Shown here: positions 53,357 to 64,000 of the stretch, piece by piece
How the letters are laid out: the number at the start of each line of letters is the position of its first letter
Position numbering within the stretch: the first letter of the stretch is position 1
Assembly: GCF_900169065.1 (NCBI RefSeq)
Contig: NZ_FXZB01000007.1
Location: 1-64,000 of the forward strand
DNA from: Brevibacterium aurantiacum
GTDB taxonomy: Bacteria > Actinomycetota > Actinomycetes > Actinomycetales > Brevibacteriaceae
Direction: 5' to 3'
DNA length: 64,000 nucleotides
Translations under genes and position numbers: made by a program
Notes under the pieces: generated by a model
What the model was told of the DNA's origin: nothing
The model's database searches: none
The model's input: the letters and a program-made list of their open reading frames with translations, nothing else

Positions 53357-53444
53357 GGTGGCGTGTCCGAGCGGCCGAAGGTGCAACACTCGAAATGTTG
53401 TGTAGGGTAACCCCCTACCGTGGGTTCAAATCCCACCGCCACCG
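53357..53444 (+). tRNA. tRNA-Ser(CGA)
   Basis: The 88-base gene folds into a class II cloverleaf. The acceptor stem GGTGGCG pairs with CGCCACC, with G as discriminator. The anticodon stem CAACA/TGTTG holds the loop CTCGAAA, giving anticodon CGA, which reads UCG. The long variable arm (about TGTAGGGTAACCCCCTACCG) and the T-loop GTTCAAAT are as expected of serine tRNAs. CCA is not encoded. Confidence 0.95.
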
Positions 53445-53451
53445 CGTTTTG

Positions 53452-53669: not shown

Positions 53670-53698
53670 TTGACACATTATGCAAAACAGACTTAACT
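53670..53698 (+). promoter_or_regulatory. promoter of the purine permease gene
   Basis: TTGACA (53670-53675) is a perfect -35 box. TTAACT (53693-53698), 17 bases on, is a fair -10 box. The composite GGAA-type element follows directly at 53712, just past the expected transcription start, a good place for repression. The leader to ATG 53846 is about 140 bases. Confidence 0.55.
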
Positions 53699-53711: not shown

Positions 53712-53737
53712 GGAAGTGTCTTTCCATGATGCGAAAA
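53712..53737 (+). promoter_or_regulatory. composite purine-locus element, copy 1 (purine permease)
   Basis: GGAAG (53712-53716), four bases, TTTCC (53721-53725), seven bases, GAAAA (53733-53737). The half-site order and spacing 5-4-5-7-5 are the same as in the elements at 63149-63174 (minus strand) and 63359-63384. This copy matches the 63359 copy in 19 of 26 positions and has the weakest third half-site. It sits about 15 bases after the -10 box. Confidence 0.55.
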
Positions 53738-53845
53738 GAATTTTCTATTGTGAGAGCAGGCTCCGTTTCTCTGCGCATGTTCAAGGCGCATGGTCGCTGA
53801 CGATGATGTCGGTGACTGATCAAATCGAACAACTTGAGGTGGTCC

Positions 53846-55327
53846 ATGAAAATGGCTGACAACGACCAACAGCGGGACACGAAGACCGCTGACAACAGCA
53901 GCGGGAGTCCCGGTCTGCTCGACAGATTCTTCGAAATCACATCACGTGGGTCCTCGATCAAACAGGAGATCCGCGGAGGCATCGTCGCCTTCGTGGCCAT
54001 GGCCTACATCGTCGTCCTCAACCCGCTCATCCTGGGCGGATCACAGGACGTCGCCGGCAACTCACTCGACTTCGCCCAACTGACCGCCGTCACCGGCCTC
54101 GTCGCCGGTGTCATCACGATCCTCTTCGGCGTCGTCGCGAAGCTTCCCTTCGCGCTCGCCGCGGGACTGGGCATGAACAGCTTCCTGGCAGTCTCCGTGG
54201 TGCAGGAAGTCACCTGGGTCGAAGCCATGGGGCTCGTCATCATCAACGGCATCATCATCGTCGTCCTCGGAGCCACCGGCATCCGGACAGCGATCTTCAA
54301 TGCTGTGCCCCACGCGCTGAAGGTGGCGATCACGGTCGGCATCGGCCTGTTCATCGCATTCATCGGCTTCGTCAACTCCGGCTTCGTCACCCGCACCCCG
54401 GCAGGACCTCCCGTCCAGCTGGGACAGGACGGCTCGATCGCATCGCTGCCGACTCTGGTGTTCGTCGTGGCGCTGATCCTCATCGGCATCCTCGTCGCAC
54501 GCAACATTCCGGGCGGAATCCTCATCGGCATCATCGTGGCTACGATCCTGGCCATGATCATCCAAGCATTTGCGAAGCTGGGCACCGTGGGTGACCCGGT
54601 CAGTCCGGATCCGAGGGGCTGGAACCTCGCCGCGCCTGAGATTCCCGCCCAGGTCGTCGCCTTGCCCGACTTCTCCCTCGTCGGAGCCTTCGACCTGTTC
54701 GGAGCCTTCGAGCGCATCGGTGTCCTCGCGGCCACAATGCTCGTCTTCACCCTGGTGTTCACGAACTTCTTCGACGCCATGGGCACGATGACCGGTCTGG
54801 CCCGCAGCGCCGGTCTGCAGACGAAGGACGGAATGTTCCCCCGCATCCGCGGTGCATTCATCGTCGAAGGCATCGGTGCCGTCGCCGGTGGTGGAGCCTC
54901 CGCCTCGTCGAACACTGTGTTCGTCGACGCGGCAGCCGGCATCGCCGAAGGTGCCCGAACGGGACTCGCCGCCTGCATCACGGGCGTGCTGTTCCTGGTG
55001 TCGATGTTCTTCGCACCGCTCATCGGCGTCATTCCGATGGAGGCCGGCGCCGCGGCGCTCGTCGTCGTCGGCGCCATGATGGTCACACAGATCCGCGAGA
55101 TCGACATGAGTGACTTCAGGACCTCGCTGCCGGTGTTCCTGACCATGGTCACCATGCCGCTGACCTATTCGATCGCCAACGGAATCGGCGTCGGATTCAT
55201 CTCCTGGGCACTCATCCACGCGATGAGCAAGCGCGGCCGGGACGTGCACTGGCTTCTCTGGGTCGTCTCCGCCGGATTCGTTCTGTACTTCGTTCGCGGA
55301 CCGATTTCGGCTATCTTGGGAGGATGA
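53846..55327 (+). CDS. purine permease, NCS2/AzgA type
   Basis: The 493-residue protein has 12 to 14 membrane helices and is of the AzgA-like branch of the NCS2 family, which moves adenine, guanine or hypoxanthine with protons. Features are EIRGGIVAFVAMAYIVVLNPLI near 35, KLPFALAAGLGMNSFLA and, near the end, TNFFDAMGTMTGLARSAGL and GGGASASSNTVFVDAAAGIAEGARTGL, all signatures of the branch. ATG 53846 has GAGGT about five bases upstream. The xanthine dehydrogenase genes follow, and a shared composite operator suggests control with the other purine genes. The substrate is probably guanine or hypoxanthine. Confidence 0.88.
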   Translation: MKMADNDQQRDTKTADNSSGSPGLLDRFFEITSRGSSIKQEIRGGIVAFVAMAYIVVLNPLILGGSQDVAGNSLDFAQLTAVTGLVAGVITILFGVVAKLPFALAAGLGMNSFLAVSVVQEVTWVEAMGLVIINGIIIVVLGATGIRTAIFNAVPHALKVAITVGIGLFIAFIGFVNSGFVTRTPAGPPVQLGQDGSIASLPTLVFVVALILIGILVARNIPGGILIGIIVATILAMIIQAFAKLGTVGDPVSPDPRGWNLAAPEIPAQVVALPDFSLVGAFDLFGAFERIGVLAATMLVFTLVFTNFFDAMGTMTGLARSAGLQTKDGMFPRIRGAFIVEGIGAVAGGGASASSNTVFVDAAAGIAEGARTGLAACITGVLFLVSMFFAPLIGVIPMEAGAAALVVVGAMMVTQIREIDMSDFRTSLPVFLTMVTMPLTYSIANGIGVGFISWALIHAMSKRGRDVHWLLWVVSAGFVLYFVRGPISAILGG

Positions 55328-55432
55328 CGAATATGTCTGAGATCACAGCTTGGTCGAAAGGCCAGATCGCACACGGGTGCTGAGAACGATTGAGTCGACG
55401 GCCGCGGGTGCCAGACCCGTGCCGCGACACCA

Positions 55433-55479
55433 CGTTCTTCGCTGCTGTTCGCATGGATAACCAGAAGTTTCGAAGAACG
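55433..55479. promoter_or_regulatory. 9-bp inverted repeat upstream of xdhA
   Basis: CGTTCTTCG (55433-55441) and CGAAGAACG (55471-55479) are perfect reverse complements, 29 bases apart, in the 212-base gap between the permease and xdhA. The second arm is itself part of TTCGAAGAACGAA. It may be an operator pair or a leader hairpin. It does not resemble the composite GGAA-type element. Confidence 0.4.
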
Positions 55480-55539
55480 AAGCAAATGTTCTAACCATGC
55501 ACTGTGCGCCGCATAGACGAGGCGCAGGAGGTAAGTGCG

Positions 55540-57027
55540 ATGTCTGCTCCGGCAACTCAACGTTCCACCGCCCAGGTTTCAGTGAACTCAGACGTTCACG
55601 AATTCGACGGGCCACCACATACAAATGCTCTCGACTTCCTCCGCGGAGTCGGCCTCACCGCAGCCAAAGAAGGCTGCGCCGAAGGCGAATGCGGGGCCTG
55701 CGCGATCATGGTCGCCCGCCCCGATGCCGATGGCTCAACCCGCTGGACATCGATCAACTCGTGCCTGCTGCCTGCCGCCGCACTCGACGGCCAGGAAGTC
55801 ATCACGGCAGAAGGCCTCGCCGACGGTGAGTCCGTCCACCCCGTCCAGGAAGAGATGGCCGTGCGCGGCGGATCCCAATGCGGATACTGCACCCCCGGCT
55901 TCATCTGCTCGATGGCCGCCGAATACTACCGCCCCGAACGCGCCGACGACGCCGCAGAGGCCACCGCTGACGCAGGCGAGCACGAGCATCACTGCGGTCC
56001 CAACGGCTTCGACATCCACTCCCTGTCCGGCAACCTCTGCCGCTGCACCGGCTACCGCCCCATCCGCGACGCCGCCTACGCACTCGGCCAGCCCGAACCC
56101 GGCGACACGATCGCCCAGCGACAGCAGAACCCGGCACCCGCCTCGGCGAGCACCGACATCCATCGCGCGGACACAGCCACCGGTGAGACCGGACGTTTCC
56201 GTCGCCCCTCCACCCTCGCCGAGGCGCTGGATATCTTGGCGAGCGAACCCGAGGTTCTCGTGGTCGCCGGCGCCACCGACTGGGGTGTGGAGGTCAACAT
56301 CAAGGGGGCACGGGCGAAGTCGATGCTCGCCATCGACCGTCTGCCCGAGCTGCGCGGCATCCGCCGCACTCCCGAGTACATCGAACTCGGTGCCGCTCAC
56401 ACCCTGAGTGAACTCGAACGCGAACTCGCCGGTTCGATCCCGCTGCTGGGCAAGCTGATCCCGCAGTTCGCCTCCCGCCTCATCCGCAACGCCGCCACCA
56501 TCGGCGGCAACCTCGGCACAGGCTCACCCATCGGCGACACCCCGCCGGCACTCCTGGCCCTGGACGCGCAGCTCGTGCTCACCTCGGCGATGGGATCTCG
56601 GGTCGTGGAGCTGGCTGAGTACTTCACCGGCTACCGGCAGACCGTGCGCGAGGCCGGTGAACTCATCACCGCCATCCGCATTCCGCTGCCGCTGGCACCC
56701 ATGACCTCATTCCAGAAGATCGCGAAGCGCCGCTTCGACGACATCTCCTCGGTCGCCATCGGCTACGCGGTCACCGTCGACGGCGGGATCGTGACCAAGG
56801 CCAGACTGGGACTCGGGGGAGTCGCAGCCACCCCGCTGCGCGCCACTGCCACCGAAGCCCAGCTCGAAGGCTCACCCTGGAGCCTCGAAACTGTCCATGC
56901 AGCGGCAGAGACACTGGCCGCAGAAGGCACCCCGATGGATGATCACCGGGCGAGTGCGAAATATCGGACCGCGATGCTGCGGTCCTCATTGGAACGCTTC
57001 TATGCCGAACAGGAGGCAGCACGATGA
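55540..57027 (+). CDS. xdhA: xanthine dehydrogenase small subunit (2Fe-2S and FAD domains)
   Basis: This 495-residue subunit carries the electron transfer centres of xanthine dehydrogenase. The first 2Fe-2S cluster uses GCAEGECGACAIMV near 45, and the second uses QCGYCTPGF near 115 and NLCRCTGYRPI near 168. The gap between these Cys pairs is 49 residues, about 18 more than usual, with an acidic, His-rich insertion (EHEHHCGPNGFDIH). The FAD domain (about 210-495) has VVAGATDWGVEVN, AATIGGNLGTGSPIGD and the family C-terminal. ATG 55540 has a perfect AGGAGGT site seven bases upstream. The molybdenum subunit gene overlaps the stop by ATGA. Confidence 0.93.
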   Translation: MSAPATQRSTAQVSVNSDVHEFDGPPHTNALDFLRGVGLTAAKEGCAEGECGACAIMVARPDADGSTRWTSINSCLLPAAALDGQEVITAEGLADGESVHPVQEEMAVRGGSQCGYCTPGFICSMAAEYYRPERADDAAEATADAGEHEHHCGPNGFDIHSLSGNLCRCTGYRPIRDAAYALGQPEPGDTIAQRQQNPAPASASTDIHRADTATGETGRFRRPSTLAEALDILASEPEVLVVAGATDWGVEVNIKGARAKSMLAIDRLPELRGIRRTPEYIELGAAHTLSELERELAGSIPLLGKLIPQFASRLIRNAATIGGNLGTGSPIGDTPPALLALDAQLVLTSAMGSRVVELAEYFTGYRQTVREAGELITAIRIPLPLAPMTSFQKIAKRRFDDISSVAIGYAVTVDGGIVTKARLGLGGVAATPLRATATEAQLEGSPWSLETVHAAAETLAAEGTPMDDHRASAKYRTAMLRSSLERFYAEQEAAR

Positions 57028-59423
57028 GCCACCTCTCACAGCGACCCACCGACCCCATCGTCGGCGAGTCCCATCACCACGAAAGCGCCTTCGGTCACGT
57101 CACCGGAGCGGCCCTCTACACCGATGACCTCGTGGGACGCCTCGCAGGAGTCCTCCACGCCTATCCCGTGCAGTCCACCCAGGCGCACGCGAAACTGGGC
57201 AAGGTCGACATCGAGCCCGCCTATCAGGTGCCCGGAGTCGTCCGCGTCATCACCGCGGCAGACGTCCCCGGAGTCAACGACCAGGGCGTCAAACACGATG
57301 AGCCGATGCTGCCCGTCGACGAAGTGATGTTCTTCGGCCAGCCCATCGCCTGGGTCCTCGGCACCGACTTGGAGGCGGCGAAGGCCGGAGCCGCGACAGT
57401 GGTCGTGGACTACGAGCCACTGCCCTCGCTGGTCACTGTGCGTGAGGCGATCGATGCGCAGAGCTTCCACGGTGTCCAGCCCGTCATCGACAAGGGTGAC
57501 GCGGACGGCGCCTTCGCCGATGCCGCGCACGTCTTCGAAGGCGAGTTCGAGTTCGCCGGACAGGAGCACTTCTACCTCGAGACCCAGGCCTCACTGGCCC
57601 ACGTCGACGAGAGCGGACAGGTCTTCGTCCAATGCTCGACGCAGCACCCCACCGAGACCCAGGACATCGTCTCCCACGTCCTCGGAGTTCCCGCCCACGA
57701 GGTGACCGTGCAGTGCCTGCGCATGGGCGGCGGCTTCGGCGGCAAGGAAATGCAGCCCCACGGCTACGCCGCACTCGCGGCCCTCGGCGCGAAGCTCACC
57801 GGTCGCCCGGTGCGCCTGCGACTCAACCGCACGCTCGACATCACCATGACCGGCAAGCGCCACGGCTTCCACTCCTCGTGGAAGATCGGCTTCACCGACG
57901 AGGGCAAGATCCTCGCCCTCGACGCGACGCTGACCGCCGACGGCGGGTGGAGCCTCGACCTGTCCGAGCCCGTGCTCACCCGCGCCATGTGCCATATCGA
58001 CAACGCCTACTGGGTGCCCAACATCCGGGTGGCCGGACGCATCGCGAAGTGCAACAAGACTTCACAGACGGCCTTCCGCGGATTCGGCGGACCCCAGGGC
58101 ATGCTCGTGATGGAGGACATCCTCGGCCGAGTCGCCCCGAAACTGGGACTCAGTGTCCGCGAACTGCGCCGCCGCAACTTCTACTCCGCCGGCCAGGACA
58201 CCCCCTACTACCAGCCCGTGCGCCATCCCGAACGGATGGAAGCCGCCTGGGACCAGCTCCTGACCTCCGCCGAGGTGGAGACTCGGGAAGCTGAGATCGC
58301 CGAATTCAATGCCCGGAACGAGAACGTCAAACGCGGGCTCGCTCTGACCCCGGTGAAGTTCGGGATCTCGTTCAACCTCACCGCCTTCAACCAGGGTGGG
58401 GCCCTCGTGCTCGTGTACAAGGACGGTTCCGTCCTCGTCACCCACGGCGGCACCGAAATGGGGCAGGGCCTGCACATGAAGATGCTGCAGGTCGCGGCCA
58501 CCACCCTCGGTGTGCCCCTGTCCACGGTGCGGCTTGCGCCCACGCGCACGGACAAGGTTCCCAACACCTCGGCGACGGCGGCGAGCTCCGGCACCGACCT
58601 CAACGGCGGTGCGGTCAAGGACGCCTGCGAGCAGATTCTGGGCCGCCTGACGCAGGTCGCCGCCGGGATCCTCGGGGCTCCGGCACACGAGGTCAGCGTC
58701 AGCCGCGGCATCGTCAGCGCCCTGTCATCGAAGAAGACGGTGACCTGGGAAGAGCTCATCAATGCCGCCTACTTCCAGCGGATCCAGCTCTCGGCCTCCG
58801 GGTTCTACCGGACCGAGGGACTGCACTGGGACCTGTCGCTGATGACCGGCGAACCCTTCAAGTACTTCGCCTACGGCGCTGCCGCGAGCGAGGTCGAGGT
58901 CAACCGCTTCGACGGCTCCTACCGGCTGCGCCGCGTCGACATCGTCCATGACGTCGGGGACTCGCTCTCACCGCTCATCGACTTGGGCCAGATCGAAGGC
59001 GGCTTCGTCCAGGGCGCCGGGTGGCTGACCTTGGAGGACCTGCGCTGGGACGAATCTGACAAGCCCAGCCGGGGACGCCTGGCGACCCAGGCCGCAAGCA
59101 CGTACAAGATCCCGAGCTTCTCCGAAGCACCCGAGGTCTTCAACGTCTCGCTGCTGGACAAGGCCCACGAAGAGGGCGCGGTCTACGGTTCGAAGGCCGT
59201 GGGTGAACCCCCGCTCATGCTCGCCTTCTCCGTCCGTGAGGCCCTGCGCGATGCCGTGGCCGCCTTCGGTGAGCCAGGCCGATCCGTGCAGCTGAACTCG
59301 CCGGCCACGCCCGAATCCGTGTTCTGGGCCATCGAATCGGTGCGCTCGCCAGTCGCCAGCGATGCTTCCGTGCCTGGTGATGCTGCGCAGGGGAGCCCAG
59401 AAGGCATCAGTGTCCCGTCATGA
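57024..59423 (+). CDS. xdhB: xanthine dehydrogenase molybdenum-binding subunit
   Basis: The 799-residue subunit binds the molybdenum cofactor and oxidises hypoxanthine and xanthine to urate. Typical segments are VTGAALYTDD near 22, GQEHFYLETQ near 180, MGGGFGGKE near 234, AFRGFGGPQGM near 350, GGTEMGQGLHMKMLQ near 475, and VGEPPLMLAFSVREAL near 730, which holds the catalytic Glu. The arrangement is that of bacterial XdhB rather than carbon monoxide dehydrogenase, which has a selenosulfur Cys motif. It overlaps both xdhA and xdhC by four bases. The C-terminal tail after 760 is variable. Confidence 0.95.
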   Translation: MSHLSQRPTDPIVGESHHHESAFGHVTGAALYTDDLVGRLAGVLHAYPVQSTQAHAKLGKVDIEPAYQVPGVVRVITAADVPGVNDQGVKHDEPMLPVDEVMFFGQPIAWVLGTDLEAAKAGAATVVVDYEPLPSLVTVREAIDAQSFHGVQPVIDKGDADGAFADAAHVFEGEFEFAGQEHFYLETQASLAHVDESGQVFVQCSTQHPTETQDIVSHVLGVPAHEVTVQCLRMGGGFGGKEMQPHGYAALAALGAKLTGRPVRLRLNRTLDITMTGKRHGFHSSWKIGFTDEGKILALDATLTADGGWSLDLSEPVLTRAMCHIDNAYWVPNIRVAGRIAKCNKTSQTAFRGFGGPQGMLVMEDILGRVAPKLGLSVRELRRRNFYSAGQDTPYYQPVRHPERMEAAWDQLLTSAEVETREAEIAEFNARNENVKRGLALTPVKFGISFNLTAFNQGGALVLVYKDGSVLVTHGGTEMGQGLHMKMLQVAATTLGVPLSTVRLAPTRTDKVPNTSATAASSGTDLNGGAVKDACEQILGRLTQVAAGILGAPAHEVSVSRGIVSALSSKKTVTWEELINAAYFQRIQLSASGFYRTEGLHWDLSLMTGEPFKYFAYGAAASEVEVNRFDGSYRLRRVDIVHDVGDSLSPLIDLGQIEGGFVQGAGWLTLEDLRWDESDKPSRGRLATQAASTYKIPSFSEAPEVFNVSLLDKAHEEGAVYGSKAVGEPPLMLAFSVREALRDAVAAFGEPGRSVQLNSPATPESVFWAIESVRSPVASDASVPGDAAQGSPEGISVPS

Positions 59424-60208
59424 CCTGGATGGACACAGCAGCCGAGCTTCGCAGGGCTCGAGTGCCGGCCGTCCTCGTCACTCTCGCCTCGGTCCGCGGG
59501 CATGCCCCGCGTGAGGCCGGCGCGAAGCTGATCGTCACCGCCGATGACCTGCATGGGACCATCGGCGGCGGCAATCTCGAGATGACGGCCGTTACTCGAG
59601 CCCGCGAGATCCTCGCGGCCGAGTCGGACTCCGAACCGGAGATGCTCACGCTGCGGCTCAACGACAAGGCACCGGCCAAGTACGGACGTCAGTGCTGCGG
59701 GGGAGAGGTCAGCGTTCTGCTCGAACCGCTGCCCGTTCCCGCCTCGGTGGCGATCTTCGGTGCCGGCAACATCGGACTCGAACTCACCCGGATCCTGGCC
59801 CGCCACGACATCGACGTCCACGTCAGCGACTCCCGTCCCGAGCACCTTGAGGAGCTCGACCGACTGGAGCCGTCAGTGGCGCAGATCCACCGCGAGTTCG
59901 CCGTCGTCGGCGAGGAGGTGCTCGTCGGGCTGCCCGCGGGCGCCCACGTGCTCATCATGACCCACGACCACGCCGAGGATCTCCACCTCTGCGATGCCGC
60001 ACTGACCCGCGGCGACCTCGGCTCCATCGGCCTCATCGGGTCGAGCGCCAAATGGCAGCGCTTTCGGAAGAATCTCGTTGCCGAGGGCCACACACCCGAG
60101 ACCGTCGACACCATCGACTGCCCCATCGGCCTCCCAGACCTGCCCGGCAAGCAGCCAGCGACGATCGCGCTCAGCGTCGCCGCCGACCTCCTGCGCCGCA
60201 TGGGCTGA
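59420..60208 (+). CDS. xdhC: xanthine dehydrogenase accessory protein XdhC
   Basis: XdhC inserts the sulfurated molybdenum cofactor into XdhB. The 262-residue protein has the N-terminal part (VRGHAPREAGAKLIVT, GTIGGGNLEM, and RQCCGGEVSVLLEPL near 92 with two Cys) and a C-terminal Rossmann domain (VAIFGAGNIGLELTRILARHDI near 112, LIGSSAKWQRFRKNL near 200). Coupling to xdhB by four bases and its size fit the family. It lies 44 bases before guaD. Confidence 0.93.
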   Translation: MTWMDTAAELRRARVPAVLVTLASVRGHAPREAGAKLIVTADDLHGTIGGGNLEMTAVTRAREILAAESDSEPEMLTLRLNDKAPAKYGRQCCGGEVSVLLEPLPVPASVAIFGAGNIGLELTRILARHDIDVHVSDSRPEHLEELDRLEPSVAQIHREFAVVGEEVLVGLPAGAHVLIMTHDHAEDLHLCDAALTRGDLGSIGLIGSSAKWQRFRKNLVAEGHTPETVDTIDCPIGLPDLPGKQPATIALSVAADLLRRMG

Positions 60209-60252
60209 GCCTCTCGACAGACCGACTTTTTCACCTTTCAAGGAGTACCCCT

Positions 60253-61539
60253 ATGTTCATCTACCGCGCCCGTGTCTTCGACACACCGACCGACCCCTTC
60301 AGCGGGGGAAGCCTGCGCTCTGAGTCAGACGTCGCACTCGTCGTCGATGACGGACTGATCATCGCCCGCACCGATTTCGCGAGTGCGACCGCGGACCATC
60401 CCGACGCCGAGGTGGTCGACCTCCGTGCTGGTGTCCTCATCCCCGGACTCATCGACACCCACGTCCACTACCCGCAGATCCGTGCCATCGGCTACCTCGG
60501 CAAACCCCTGCTCGACTGGCTCGACCACTGCGCCCTGCCCGAAGAGGCGAAGCTGGGCGATCACGACTATGCCTCGGCCCTGGCCGGCGAGTTCCTCACC
60601 GGACTGACCTCGGCGGGGACCACCTCGGCGATGGTCTTCGGTTCGCACTTCGCCACCGCGATGGACACCTTCTTCACCCAGGCCGCCGAGGTGGGTCTGC
60701 GGATCACATCGGGACTGGTCACCAGCGACACGATCCTCCCGGAACCGCTGCTGACGAGCGTGGAGAGATCCGTGTCCGAGAGCCAGGACCTCATCGATCG
60801 TTGGCATGGGAAGGGCCACCTTCGGTACGCGGTGACTCCGCGCTTCTCGTTCTCCGCCGGTCAGGAGCTGCTGGCGGCCGGCGGGCAGCTGGTGGCCGAC
60901 AACCCGGGCATCTGGGTGACCTCGCACCTCAACGAGAACCGCGACGAGATCGCCGGTGTCGCCGAGAAGTTCCCCGAGGCACTCGACTACCTCGACACCT
61001 ACGATCGGGCCGGCCTGCTCAATCGGCAAACGATCCTGGCCCACAACGTCCACCCGAGCGACCGCGAACTGGCACGGATGGCTGAAGTGGGGGCCGCCTC
61101 GGCGCACTGCCCGACCTCGAACTCGAACCTGGCCAGCGGTTTCTTCCCGCTGCGCCGACACATCGAGGCCGGGGTCCGTGTGGCACTGGGCTCCGACGTG
61201 GGCGCGGGAACCGGATTCTCACTGTTCAAGGAGGGTGTCCAGGCCTACTTCATGCAGCAGCTCGATCCCTCCGGCGGTCTGCCGCTGAGTTCGGCACATC
61301 TGCTGCACCTGGCCACTGCGGCCGGCGCCGAGGCACTGGAACTGAGCGACCAAGTTGGGGACCTGTCCGAGGGCAAGCGCTTCGATGCCGCCTACATCCA
61401 GCCGACCGAGGGTCAGCCCCTGGCCGTGGGGCTTGAGCACGCCAGCAGTGATAACGACGCTCTGGCGAAGATCTTCGCCATGGGGACCCCGGCCGACATC
61501 GCCCAGGTGTGGGTCGACGGTCGGCTCGTCAAGGGCTGA
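60253..61539 (+). CDS. guaD: guanine deaminase
   Basis: GuaD deaminates guanine to xanthine, the substrate of the adjacent dehydrogenase. The 428-residue amidohydrolase has the zinc HxH in LIDTHVHYPQIRAIG near 71-85, AKLGDHDYASALAGEFL, the third zinc His in VTSHLNENRDEIAG near 219, and AHCPTSNSNLASGFF near 288 and ALGSDVGAGTGFSLF near 318 with the catalytic Asp. AAGGAG is seven bases before ATG 60253; the open frame upstream is not used. The product fits the pathway guanine, xanthine, urate. The end is convergent with the permease gene. Confidence 0.93.
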   Translation: MFIYRARVFDTPTDPFSGGSLRSESDVALVVDDGLIIARTDFASATADHPDAEVVDLRAGVLIPGLIDTHVHYPQIRAIGYLGKPLLDWLDHCALPEEAKLGDHDYASALAGEFLTGLTSAGTTSAMVFGSHFATAMDTFFTQAAEVGLRITSGLVTSDTILPEPLLTSVERSVSESQDLIDRWHGKGHLRYAVTPRFSFSAGQELLAAGGQLVADNPGIWVTSHLNENRDEIAGVAEKFPEALDYLDTYDRAGLLNRQTILAHNVHPSDRELARMAEVGAASAHCPTSNSNLASGFFPLRRHIEAGVRVALGSDVGAGTGFSLFKEGVQAYFMQQLDPSGGLPLSSAHLLHLATAAGAEALELSDQVGDLSEGKRFDAAYIQPTEGQPLAVGLEHASSDNDALAKIFAMGTPADIAQVWVDGRLVKG

Positions 61540-61542
61540 GGA

Positions 61543-63117
61543 TCAGCGGTGGTTGTCTGAATCGCTGGTGACCACCTGTTTCACGCTGGCGGTGTCGACG
61601 ATGTCTCCGCAGTCGATCGCGGCTTGGATCTCCTCGGCCTGCTCATCGGGTACGAGCGGGATCTCCTCGCCGTCGCAGTCGACGAACTTCCCATCGATGA
61701 ACTGATCGCCCTCGCGCAGATCCTTGAGGTTCGAGGGCGTGAGGAAGCGTGCCGGTTTCGCGGCGTAGACGGAAGCGTTGGTCGAGTTGCCGAAGCGCAG
61801 CTCGTTGAACAGGAGGTTGAGCAGCACCGCCATGATCGCGGCCGAGGAGATTCCCGAGTGGAAGATCGTCTGCACCCAGGACGGAAAATGCTCGTAGAAG
61901 TCGGGCTTGACCACGGGGACGAGGGCGAAGGCGAGGGACGCGGAGACGATGATGAGGTTCATATTGCCCTCGAACTTCACCTCCTTGAGGTTGCGGATGC
62001 CTGATCCCGACACGGTTCCGAAGAGGATGAAGCCGGCGCCGCCGAGGACGGGCATCGGCACCGCAGCGACGACCTGACCGAGCACGGGCATGAGCCCCAG
62101 GAGGATGAGGATGACGCCGCCCGCGGAGACGACGAAGCGGGAGCGGACTCCTGTCAGCGCCACGAGGCCCACGTTCTGCGCGAAGGCCGATTGGGTGAAG
62201 GAGCCGAAGAAGGGTGCGATGACCGAGGAGGCCATGTCGGCGCGCAGGCCGGCCGCGACCCGCTTCTTGTCGACCGGGGTGCCGATGATCTCGCCGACGG
62301 CCAGCACATCGGCCGCGGTCTCGGTCTTGATGACGAGGATGACGATGAGCATCGACCCGATCGCTGCGAGGTCGAAGGTCGGTGCGCCGAAGGGCAGCAG
62401 ACCCGGGATCGCCACGGGGGCACCCTGCCCGACCTCGGAGAAGTCGGTCATGCCCATGGCGGCACCGATGCCCGTGCCGATGATGAGACCGAGCAGAATC
62501 GACAGCCGCGAGATGGCGGCCGAGCCGACCTTGCTCAGCAGCAGGATGACGGCGAAGGTGATGAAGGCCAGGGCGATGTTCTGCACTGAGCCGTAGTCCG
62601 CAGCGGCCTCATCGTCGCCCATGGCCCAATTGGCGGCCGTCGGGATGAGCGTGAGTCCGATGGCAGTGATGACCACCCCGGTGACCACGGGTGGGAAGAA
62701 GCGGATGATCCGCGCGAAGAACGGGGCGACGACGAAGCCGATGACGCTGGCGACGATGACCGCGCCGAAGATGTCGCTGAGACTGCCGCCGCCGGTGAGA
62801 ATGGCGAGCATCGTCGCGACTCCGGCAAAGGAGACGCCCTGGATGAGCGGCAGCTTCGACCCGACGAGGGGAAAGCCGATGCTCTGGATGAGTGTGGCGA
62901 TGCCGCCGACGAAGAGGCTGGCGGTGACCAGCGCGACGAGCTGATCGCCGTCGACTCCGGCCGCCTTGCCGATGATGAGGGGCACCGCGATGATGCCGCC
63001 GTACATCGTGAGGACATGCTGGAGCCCGTAGGCGAAGAGCTTGGGCACAGGGAGCCACGCGTCTTCGGGTCGCTTGGACCCGGGCGGGAGGGACTTCGTC
63101 GTCGAATTCTCGGTCAT
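61543..63117 (-). CDS. NCS2 family nucleobase:cation symporter, xanthine/urate type
   Basis: The 524-residue membrane protein is of the NAT/NCS2 branch that includes xanthine and uric acid permeases. The 14 helices include VLTMYGGIIAVPLIIG near the start, and the signature QNVGLVALTGVRSRFV near 305 (Q-N-x-G-x4-T-x3-S-R). Its place among purine catabolic genes favours xanthine or urate over uracil. It diverges from the hydroxypyruvate isomerase gene across 306 bases, where two copies of the composite element lie. The C-terminal 60 residues are hydrophilic. Confidence 0.9.
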   Translation of the reverse strand: MTENSTTKSLPPGSKRPEDAWLPVPKLFAYGLQHVLTMYGGIIAVPLIIGKAAGVDGDQLVALVTASLFVGGIATLIQSIGFPLVGSKLPLIQGVSFAGVATMLAILTGGGSLSDIFGAVIVASVIGFVVAPFFARIIRFFPPVVTGVVITAIGLTLIPTAANWAMGDDEAAADYGSVQNIALAFITFAVILLLSKVGSAAISRLSILLGLIIGTGIGAAMGMTDFSEVGQGAPVAIPGLLPFGAPTFDLAAIGSMLIVILVIKTETAADVLAVGEIIGTPVDKKRVAAGLRADMASSVIAPFFGSFTQSAFAQNVGLVALTGVRSRFVVSAGGVILILLGLMPVLGQVVAAVPMPVLGGAGFILFGTVSGSGIRNLKEVKFEGNMNLIIVSASLAFALVPVVKPDFYEHFPSWVQTIFHSGISSAAIMAVLLNLLFNELRFGNSTNASVYAAKPARFLTPSNLKDLREGDQFIDGKFVDCDGEEIPLVPDEQAEEIQAAIDCGDIVDTASVKQVVTSDSDNHR

Positions 63118-63148
63118 ATCTCAGCCTTCCGGAGTAAGCCTCATTACT

Positions 63149-63174
63149 CTTCCGTATCGTGGATTCGATCTTCC
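63149..63174 (-). promoter_or_regulatory. composite purine-locus element, copy 2 (xanthine permease)
   Basis: On the minus strand this reads GGAAG, four bases, AATCC, seven bases (ACGATAC), GGAAG. The spacing 5-4-5-7-5 is that of the other two copies. The core TCCACGATACGGAA matches TCCACAATACGGAA of copy 3 in all but one base. It lies 32 bases before the permease start. Confidence 0.6.
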
Positions 63175-63358
63175 ACAAAGTGTGATCTCCACTACGTTCT
63201 GCCTCTTTTTCTGCGAAGTCAAATAAGGGATTCGGGTAGCTGATTTCGAATTTCGGGGCAAGTTGTCGGCACTCCGCTGCCGTCGAGAATTTCTGAGTAT
63301 TCCGCCTCGGTGGGTTGACCTCGTCTCAGTTGCCTGCCTATGCTTGATTTCATCAAAC

Positions 63359-63384
63359 GGAAATGAGTTTCCACAATACGGAAA
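63359..63384 (+). promoter_or_regulatory. composite purine-locus element, copy 3 (hydroxypyruvate isomerase)
   Basis: GGAAA (63359-63363), TGAG, TTTCC (63368-63372), ACAATAC, GGAAA (63380-63384). The central TTTCC faces the half-sites on both sides, so two overlapping inverted repeats are present. This is the cleanest copy. It ends 39 bases before ATG 63424. The rest of the 63118-63423 intergenic region is AT-rich (near 63190-63260) with no reading frame I can support. Confidence 0.65.
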
Positions 63385-63423: not shown

Positions 63424-64000
63424 ATGACGACATTCGATTTCACCAATGCCGACAGCTACATCCTCAACTGCTCCACCCTGCTCACCGAGCTGCCCGTGAT
63501 GGAGCGGGCGCAGGCGGCCAAGGATGCCGGCTTCAGCCAGGTCGAGTTCTGGTGGCCCTTCGACGGCAACCCGAGGCCCACCTCGGCGGAGGTCGATGAG
63601 TTCATCGCCTCACTCGACAAGGCCGGAGTCGAACTCAAGGGCCTGAACTTCTGGGCCGGGAACATGGCCGCCGGCGACCGGGGCATGGTCTCGATCAAGG
63701 GCGCCGAGGCCGACTTCGCGGCCAACGTCGACATCGTCGTCGAGATCGGCCGTCGCACCGGCTGCCGCGCCTTCAACGCCCTCTACGGTCTGCGCACCGA
63801 AGGCCAGACGCCCGAAGAGCAGGACGAGGTGGCCGTGGCCAACCTCAAGCTCGCCGCCGACGCCGTGGCCGCCATCGACGGCACCGTGCTCGTCGAACCC
63901 GTCTCCGGAGCCGAGGACTACCCGCTCAAGCGCGCCTCCGACGCCGCCGCGGTGGTCCAGCGGGTCCGTGCTCAGGGCGTTGCCAACATCGCCGTCCTCG
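63424..64000 (+). CDS. hyi: hydroxypyruvate isomerase (partial at window end)
   Basis: The 192 residues visible belong to the xylose-isomerase-like TIM barrel family. The sequence reads TTFDFTNADSYILNCSTLLTE, then AKDAGFSQVEFWWPF near 34 with the catalytic Glu, GLNFWAGNMAAGDRGMVS near 73 and GTVLVEPVSGAEDYPLKRA near 149 with a metal Glu. Hyi converts hydroxypyruvate to tartronate semialdehyde in the glyoxylate route that follows allantoin breakdown. GAAGGAGA is five bases before ATG 63424. The gene runs past the window edge, so the rest of the operon is not seen. It shares a promoter element with the purine permeases. Confidence 0.87.
   Translation, partial: MTTFDFTNADSYILNCSTLLTELPVMERAQAAKDAGFSQVEFWWPFDGNPRPTSAEVDEFIASLDKAGVELKGLNFWAGNMAAGDRGMVSIKGAEADFAANVDIVVEIGRRTGCRAFNALYGLRTEGQTPEEQDEVAVANLKLAADAVAAIDGTVLVEPVSGAEDYPLKRASDAAAVVQRVRAQGVANIAVL

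Follow-up and report, generated by a model that had tools for sequence, protein, structure and literature searches.

Among the regulators that bear comparison here, PcaU controls an aromatic pathway, and the AllR of Streptomyces coelicolor, an actinobacterium, is reportedly of the IclR type and represses allantoin and glyoxylate genes, with a regulon said to begin at allantoin. Escherichia coli AllR belongs to the same family; it represses genes for allantoin and glyoxylate use, gcl among them, and is glyoxylate-sensitive (PMC11323563). Paracoccus BhcR also senses glyoxylate; it controls the beta-hydroxyaspartate cycle and is reported to be an activator whose binding is weakened by glyoxylate (PMC11323563). 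For IclR-family operators, Suvorova and Gelfand (2021; PMC8222616) gave the group 1 consensus WTTYCRYW3RYGRAAW (WTT-11-AAW), tandem palindromes 18-22 nt apart and, in 32 orthologous groups, three-box sites of alternating direction in which one pair of boxes is of group 1 and the other of group 2. Here we describe repeated elements in the first 64,000 nucleotides (the window, C46:1-64000) of a contig of Brevibacterium aurantiacum, whose genome comprises 4,147,494 bases on 70 contigs; genes were read on to C46:82400. Judged from sequence, the elements are likely to be repressor operators through which one IclR-type regulator joins purine uptake, purine breakdown and glyoxylate use.

A preliminary description of the window had reported three copies of a 26-bp, three-half-site element in front of a purine permease gene, the xanthine permease gene pbuX and the hydroxypyruvate isomerase-like gene hyi. 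Reading of the sequence found all three, at 53712, 63149 and 63359, with the reported spacing and each oriented like the gene downstream (Operators A and B and part of Operator C, Table 1). The pattern GGAAR-N4-WWTCC-N7-GRAA matched the window 4 times. In 100 dinucleotide-preserving shuffles the mean was 0.02, and a count of 4 never occurred. The four matches mark three places, as the hyi array also matched on the minus strand at 63348-63372. This array therefore has four boxes and not three, and consists of two palindromes in tandem whose centres are 21 bp apart; the three-box form held for the permease and pbuX, but not for hyi or the malic enzyme gene. In the whole genome only one match was added, at C54:106668, and the reversed pattern gave none. 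A stricter pattern, GGAAANNNNWTTCCNNNATNNGGAAA, was allowed up to 3 mismatches and gave 10 genome matches, 6 of them in the cluster (reversed control 2); the 4 outside it, with matches on C36, C51 and C52 among them, each had 3 mismatches.

A sequence-only profile, R1, was trained on 32 sites from 11 other genomes, excluding the own genome and its nearest relatives G006, G012, G019 and G023; no training site was identical to any own site at more than 23 of 26 positions. Among the candidates that it scored in the own genome, R1 gave 7 matches at E<=10, all at six sites within about 24 kb (C46:53.7-77.8 kb). These precede the permease-xdh-guanine deaminase genes, the xanthine permease gene, hyi-glxR-gcl-allB, the glycerate kinase gene, uraD-HIUase-uricase and malic enzyme-DUF6986-allE. 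The genome scan that the preliminary description had called for thus reached the uraD-uricase genes, the hyi-glxR-gcl-allB run and an IclR-family gene beyond the window, and the repeated elements are confirmed as part of a larger set in which the three copies make up half of the cluster's six sites.

The conservation of the sites was followed around orthologues of the IclR-family gene, which were found at >=70% identity in 16 of 24 same-genus relatives and also in G029 (68%) and G036 (57%). About 36 kb or more around each was taken where the contig allowed, giving 19 regions of 671,997 bases in which the gene order is largely kept, less so in G018, G029 and G036. GGAAR-N4-WTTCC-N7-GGAAR, required at >=13 of 15 positions, matched these regions 109 times; 102 matches lay upstream of the permease, pbuX, hyi, glxK, uraD, urate oxidase, iclR or maeB genes, 1 was intragenic and 6 were near no mapped gene. 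Because many of the genomes are closely related, these counts are not independent events. Five resampled sets of equal dinucleotide make-up gave 3, 5, 3, 1 and 2 matches, and for 24 alternative box spacings the counts ranged from 1 to 60, the high ones belonging to spacings that adjoin 4/7. At the permease promoter a same-orientation site of 12-14 of 15 positions was present in 14 of 15 cases scored (own and 13 relatives), G029 reaching only 9. Eight relatives carry a pbuX match within the region; such a site of 12-14 positions precedes it in 5 of them (G012, G006, G010, G005 and G018) and not in G019, where the match is a fragment, G029 or G036. The outer fourth box of hyi was kept at 4 of 5 positions in 16 of 17 promoters and at 3 of 5 in G018. 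Short boxes such as these could arise by chance in AT-rich intergenic regions, which are enriched in TTTC and GAAA. The excess in the window and the recurrence at equivalent promoters in the 19 regions led us to reject a chance origin, to which we assign a negligible probability; the elements are almost certainly real regulatory operators. The comparison with relatives and the own-genome scan also bear out the earlier proposal of one regulon tying purine uptake to glyoxylate metabolism.

The operator unit is TTTCC-N7-GGAAA. A third box stands 4 bp upstream of it at the permease, pbuX, glxK and uraD, and at hyi and the malic enzyme gene there is a full second palindrome 21 bp away. Compared with WTT-11-AAW, the core palindrome has no mismatch at 63368 and one at 53721 and at 63347; at 0-1 mismatch the consensus occurs at 8 places in the genome, 5 of them in the cluster (also C46:71749 and 77790; control 0). 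The third box makes the group 2 pair, giving the alternating arrangement of the three-box IclR-family motif, and the 21-bp tandem spacing falls within the 18-22 nt range (PMC8222616). The earlier assignment to IclR-type operators thus stood. Two IclR dimers may pair on the boxes as a dimer of dimers. PcaU, likened here by description only, also has a three-box operator whose third box is needed for binding (cited in PMC8222616). The operator of E. coli AllR, KTTGGAAWAWTWTTCCAAC, differs in arrangement (PMC8222616, Table 1), and the Brevibacterium regulon differs from that of E. coli AllR in also taking in purine import and xanthine dehydrogenase. Two of the three places outside the cluster with 0-1 mismatch to WTT-11-AAW, C22:54100-54116 and C25:23217-23233, are at the 5' ends of two other IclR-type genes, and are perhaps the own operators of these genes.

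The preliminary description had placed the regulator outside the window, and an IclR-family gene adjoined by an operator array was found there (Table 1). Its product has both domains of the family, HTH_IclR (PF09339, 59.1 bits, cut-off 22) and IclR_C (PF01614, 128.6 bits, cut-off 24). The best NCBIfam score was to BhcR (NF045644, 190.9 bits), below the cut-off of 350; the scores to the models for AllR (NF007548, 107.9 bits, cut-off 406) and for the IclR glyoxylate bypass repressor (NF008601, 157.6 bits, cut-off 380) were also too low. Among the best 80 loci of a scan of named genomes, from which own-genome records were possibly excluded, the nearest sequence was from B. aurantiacum XU54 (97% identity). 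The gap between iclR and maeB holds, upstream of the four-box array, a two-box element GGAAG-N4-TTTCC (the group 2 pair only; L031:15233-15246), which was present in all 14 malic enzyme promoters of Brevibacterium that were compared (one with GGAAT; G018 outside the set) and is perhaps the regulator's own operator. In G007 and G008 (L090/L091 and L080/L081) no malic enzyme match was found between iclR and DUF6986, and the array upstream of iclR is still present, at 12 and 11 of 15 positions.

Of these best 80 loci, 72 (L111-L182) were not labelled Brevibacterium and came from Arthrobacter and allies, Microbacterium, Kocuria, Cryobacterium, Sinomonas, Nesterenkonia and a few unnamed actinobacteria. 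Profile R1 matched them 68 times at E<=1, and 43 of these matches were compared with genes. Thirty-two preceded iclR or maeB (10), hyi (9), uraD (2) or, at a distance of about 300-350 bp, urate oxidase (11). Another 4 fell within a hyi alignment, 2 preceded a distant guanine-deaminase-like gene and 5 had none of the genes nearby. By their coordinates, most of the remaining 25 are immediately upstream of iclR. Within 360 bp upstream of iclR, 62 of 70 non-Brevibacterium loci had a four-box array scoring >=16 of 20, compared with 10 of 1400 shuffles; the number was 63 of 70 once the starts of L123 and L153 were corrected (L154 and L174 excluded).

The boxes could also belong to a different IclR-type or an unrelated regulator, with the neighbouring iclR as a bystander. 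This would be in line with the 15 IclR_C matches of the own genome, 14 of them besides this regulator, and with the palindromes at the two other IclR-type genes. Against it, the array upstream of iclR recurs across other genera, and every one of the 16 same-genus relatives that carry the gene has hyi, gcl, uricase and allE close to it. We consider a bystander very improbable and, from the sequence comparisons, the cluster operators are highly likely to be bound by the product of this gene. At E<=1, R1 also had matches in 15 of the 16 regulator-bearing same-genus relatives and in none of the 8 that lack the regulator (one matched at E 4.84). The same presence and absence split was shown by uricase (17 of 25 genomes including the own), so the regulator, the sites and the pathway travel together and the regulator is not separated from the pathway; the co-occurrence was therefore dropped as proof of binding.

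The position of the operators relative to the promoter was determined by anchoring the sites on their first box and measuring the start of TTGA[CT]. Each of the 14 permease promoters with an anchored site, the own one among them, had this start at -42. At hyi it lay at -43 or -44 in 16 of 17 promoters, and at uraD at -42 or -43 in 17 of 18. Together, 47 of 49 promoters have the -35 start at -42 to -44, which puts the operator just after the -10 and over the expected transcription start, the usual site of a repressor. The promoter of the permease operon was not listed on the plus strand by the consensus scan, and its -10 was therefore assigned by eye; that of hyi came from the scan (Table 1). 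From this geometry the bound regulator probably represses. The same regulator might instead activate from these operators, at all or some promoters, in the manner of BhcR. This would suit the top NCBIfam score to BhcR, the activation reported for that protein, and the glxK and maeB promoters, where a fixed -35 was seen in 0 of 15 and 0 of 16 cases. The usual binding place of an activator is over the -35 or upstream of it; at the permease, hyi and uraD the first box follows the -10 in 47 of 49 promoters, so we regard activation as unlikely.

The inducer was approached by aligning the regulator to 2o99 and numbering the residues by hand; all five positions fit one offset. In E. coli IclR, G160, A161 (I in BhcR), D212, S239 and S241 bind the glyoxylate or pyruvate oxygens, and a hydrophobic patch of L143, M146, L154 and L220, which BhcR lacks, meets the pyruvate methyl group (PMC11323563). 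The equivalent oxygen-binding positions are G149, V150, D201, S226 and S228 and were invariant in 11 of 11 aligned sequences. Four of them match E. coli IclR, and the position of A161 holds V150, which is neither A nor I. BhcR resembles the regulator in its oxygen-binding residues (PMC11323563). The patch is largely changed, to Q132, M135, A143 and V209. We infer a glyoxylate-type small 2-oxo acid, most likely glyoxylate itself, as the inducer, a reading that we favour with modest confidence. The inducer of the same operators could also be allantoate, ureidoglycolate or urate. The regulon covers the whole pathway, the patch and the A161 position depart from E. coli IclR, and Streptomyces AllR is said to respond to allantoate, all of which would agree with an intermediate. 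On the other side, the equivalents of G160, D212, S239 and S241 are kept in all 11 aligned sequences, and the regulon includes malic enzyme and glycerate kinase, which suggests the disposal of glyoxylate. An intermediate as inducer is thus a lesser, though appreciable, possibility.

Several further points weigh against repression by this one regulator through all six operators. Operator B and the uraD site have more than one mismatch to the palindrome consensus, and at pbuX TTGA[CT] starts at -48 or -49 in 5 of 6 promoters. The R1 search of the own genome was non-exhaustive, with 150 of 758 first-look candidates scored; R1 returned nothing in G018 despite a training site from that genome, and 11 of the 16 regulator-bearing relatives had also given training sites. 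In the other genera an 8/2 box spacing gave a higher mean array score than 7/4 (16.86 vs 16.49), so that the exact box borders there are tentative; the loci scoring >=16 were 55 for 8/2 against 62 for 7/4, and 0 to 56 for other spacings. Binding by this protein, its repressing effect and the identity of the inducer are predicted from sequence.

If the regulator is a glyoxylate-sensitive repressor, it would most likely block transcription when bound at the operator just downstream of the -10. Purine degradation would then yield as its end product a small 2-oxo acid, in all likelihood glyoxylate, which would bind the C-terminal domain and release the repressor. Release would together raise purine import, xanthine dehydrogenase, uricase, allantoinase, ureidoglycine aminohydrolase, the gcl-glxR-hyi-glxK route and malic enzyme. 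More tentatively, a single glyoxylate sensor might run all stages from purine import to the entry into central metabolism, with the response set by the number of boxes (three or four) and their fixed register after the -10, and with pyruvate kinase and an aspartate-glyoxylate aminotransferase-like gene added in some relatives; we hold this to be somewhat less than an even chance.

The three-box type of site is already known, and this gene network looks like a new, well-supported sequence-based example of it. The words purine and Brevibacterium do not occur in the main text of PMC8222616; its supplements may include regulons from related genera. Among the open-access papers listed, none beyond PMC8222616 and PMC11323563 bore on this regulon, in a search that ran outside those supplements and the Streptomyces AllR papers. 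The analysis outlines a concrete purine-utilization regulon of Brevibacterium and related genera and names its probable regulator. It also provides a three- and four-box operator grammar with a fixed register at several promoters, and with it a natural series of sites for the pairing of IclR dimers on alternating boxes.

Table 1. Operators, promoters and genes of the purine-glyoxylate cluster (positions without a prefix are window positions)
Feature	Position	Strand	Remarks
Operator A	53712-53737 GGAAGTGTCTTTCCATGATGCGAAAA	+	boxes GGAAG-N4-TTTCC-N7-GAAAA; first box starts 134 bp upstream of permease ATG
Operator B	63149-63174 GGAAGATCGAATCCACGATACGGAAG	-	boxes GGAAG-N4-AATCC-N7-GGAAG; upstream of pbuX
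hyi element as first described	63359-63384 GGAAATGAGTTTCCACAATACGGAAA	+	part of Operator C
Operator C	63347-63384	+	four boxes ATTTC-N7-GGAAA-N4-TTTCC-N7-GGAAA; two bases past hyi -10
Further operator	C46:71749	-	upstream of glycerate kinase (glxK)
Further operator	C46:71859	+	upstream of uraD
Further operator	C46:77781	+	four-box array between iclR gene and malic enzyme
IclR-family regulator gene	C46:76807-77589	-	13 kb beyond window end; divergent from malic enzyme
Permease operon promoter, probable	53670-53698	+	-35 TTGACA 53670-53675; -10 about 53693-53698
hyi promoter, probable	63315-63344	+	TTGACC-N18-TATGCT
tRNA-Ser (anticodon cga)	53357-53445		upstream of permease promoter
Purine permease (Xan_ur_permease, PF00860)	53846-55327	+	Pfam 120.1 bits; no NCBIfam match; Operator A target
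xdhA, xanthine dehydrogenase small subunit	55540-57027	+	start uncertain, 55504 possible; TIGR02963 424.8 bits, below 467 cut-off
xdhB, xanthine dehydrogenase molybdopterin subunit	57024-59423	+	TIGR02965 937.2 bits, cut-off 849.5 passed
xdhC, accessory protein	59420-60208	+	TIGR02964 242.3 bits, cut-off 161.6 passed
Guanine deaminase	60247-61539	+	start uncertain; TIGR02967 390 bits, cut-off 375.4 passed, for reading frame 60052-61536
pbuX, xanthine permease	61543-63117	-	TIGR03173 479.8 bits, cut-off 414.15 passed; Operator B target
hyi, hydroxypyruvate isomerase-like	63424-64000	+	truncated by window end; TIGR03234 219.3 bits, below 353.45 cut-off

Together the cluster genes cover the import of purines, their breakdown to glyoxylate and its further conversion to glycerate and malate or pyruvate. 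The permease, xdhA, xdhB, xdhC and guanine deaminase genes (plus strand) are followed by the xanthine permease gene (minus) and by hyi, glxR, gcl and allB (plus), of which all after hyi lie past the window end. Next come a DUF559 gene, the glycerate kinase gene (minus) and the uraD, hydroxyisourate hydrolase, urate oxidase and aceE genes (plus). The IclR gene (minus), the genes for malic enzyme, DUF6986 and the (S)-ureidoglycine aminohydrolase allE (plus), and a cut malate:quinone oxidoreductase gene (minus) complete the order. The extents of the operons are putative. As the preliminary description had held, xdhA does not appear to be a direct target, its best site scoring 10 of 15 box positions; from the gene order it is probably on a shared transcript with the permease, and guanine deaminase is the probable final gene of this operon. 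At aceE, which adjoins the cluster, no convincing operator was found (10-12 of 15).

The DUF6986 protein (L031:16755-18125, C46:79254-80624; PF22484, 528 bits) is encoded between the malic enzyme and ureidoglycine aminohydrolase genes and was present in 18 of 18 related regions. It has a weak HpcH/HpaI aldolase match; a search of solved structures gave no match at E<=0.1, and no paper on it was found in the open-access literature. Its gene position places it in the purine-glyoxylate pathway and suggests a role in glyoxylate or ureidoglycolate metabolism. A role as the sole malate synthase was considered and dropped, as the genome has two canonical malate synthase matches at other loci (C41 and C38).

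When R1 was applied to 29 relatives, 18 had matches at E<=5. Eleven places were off the cluster: 6 upstream of clear pathway genes, 2 looser fits and 3 with no evident link to the pathway (a DcuC-type transporter in G005, and the places G023:C58 and G004:C48). Sites before pbuX or a paralogue were found in G023, G024 and G005, and one before permease-xdhA-xdhB in G022, on a different contig from the main cluster. In G036 they stood before hyi-glxR-gcl-glxK and before a xanthine permease gene, both on the regulator's contig at about 30 and 229 kb from it. A further match in G005 (L185:4549-4574) lies 58 bp upstream of a pyruvate kinase gene. In G010 a match (L189:4762-4781) was located between a BhcA-like aspartate-glyoxylate aminotransferase gene (432 bits, below the 650 cut-off) and a divergent dicarboxylate carrier gene, which hints at a beta-hydroxyaspartate-type route in this relative.

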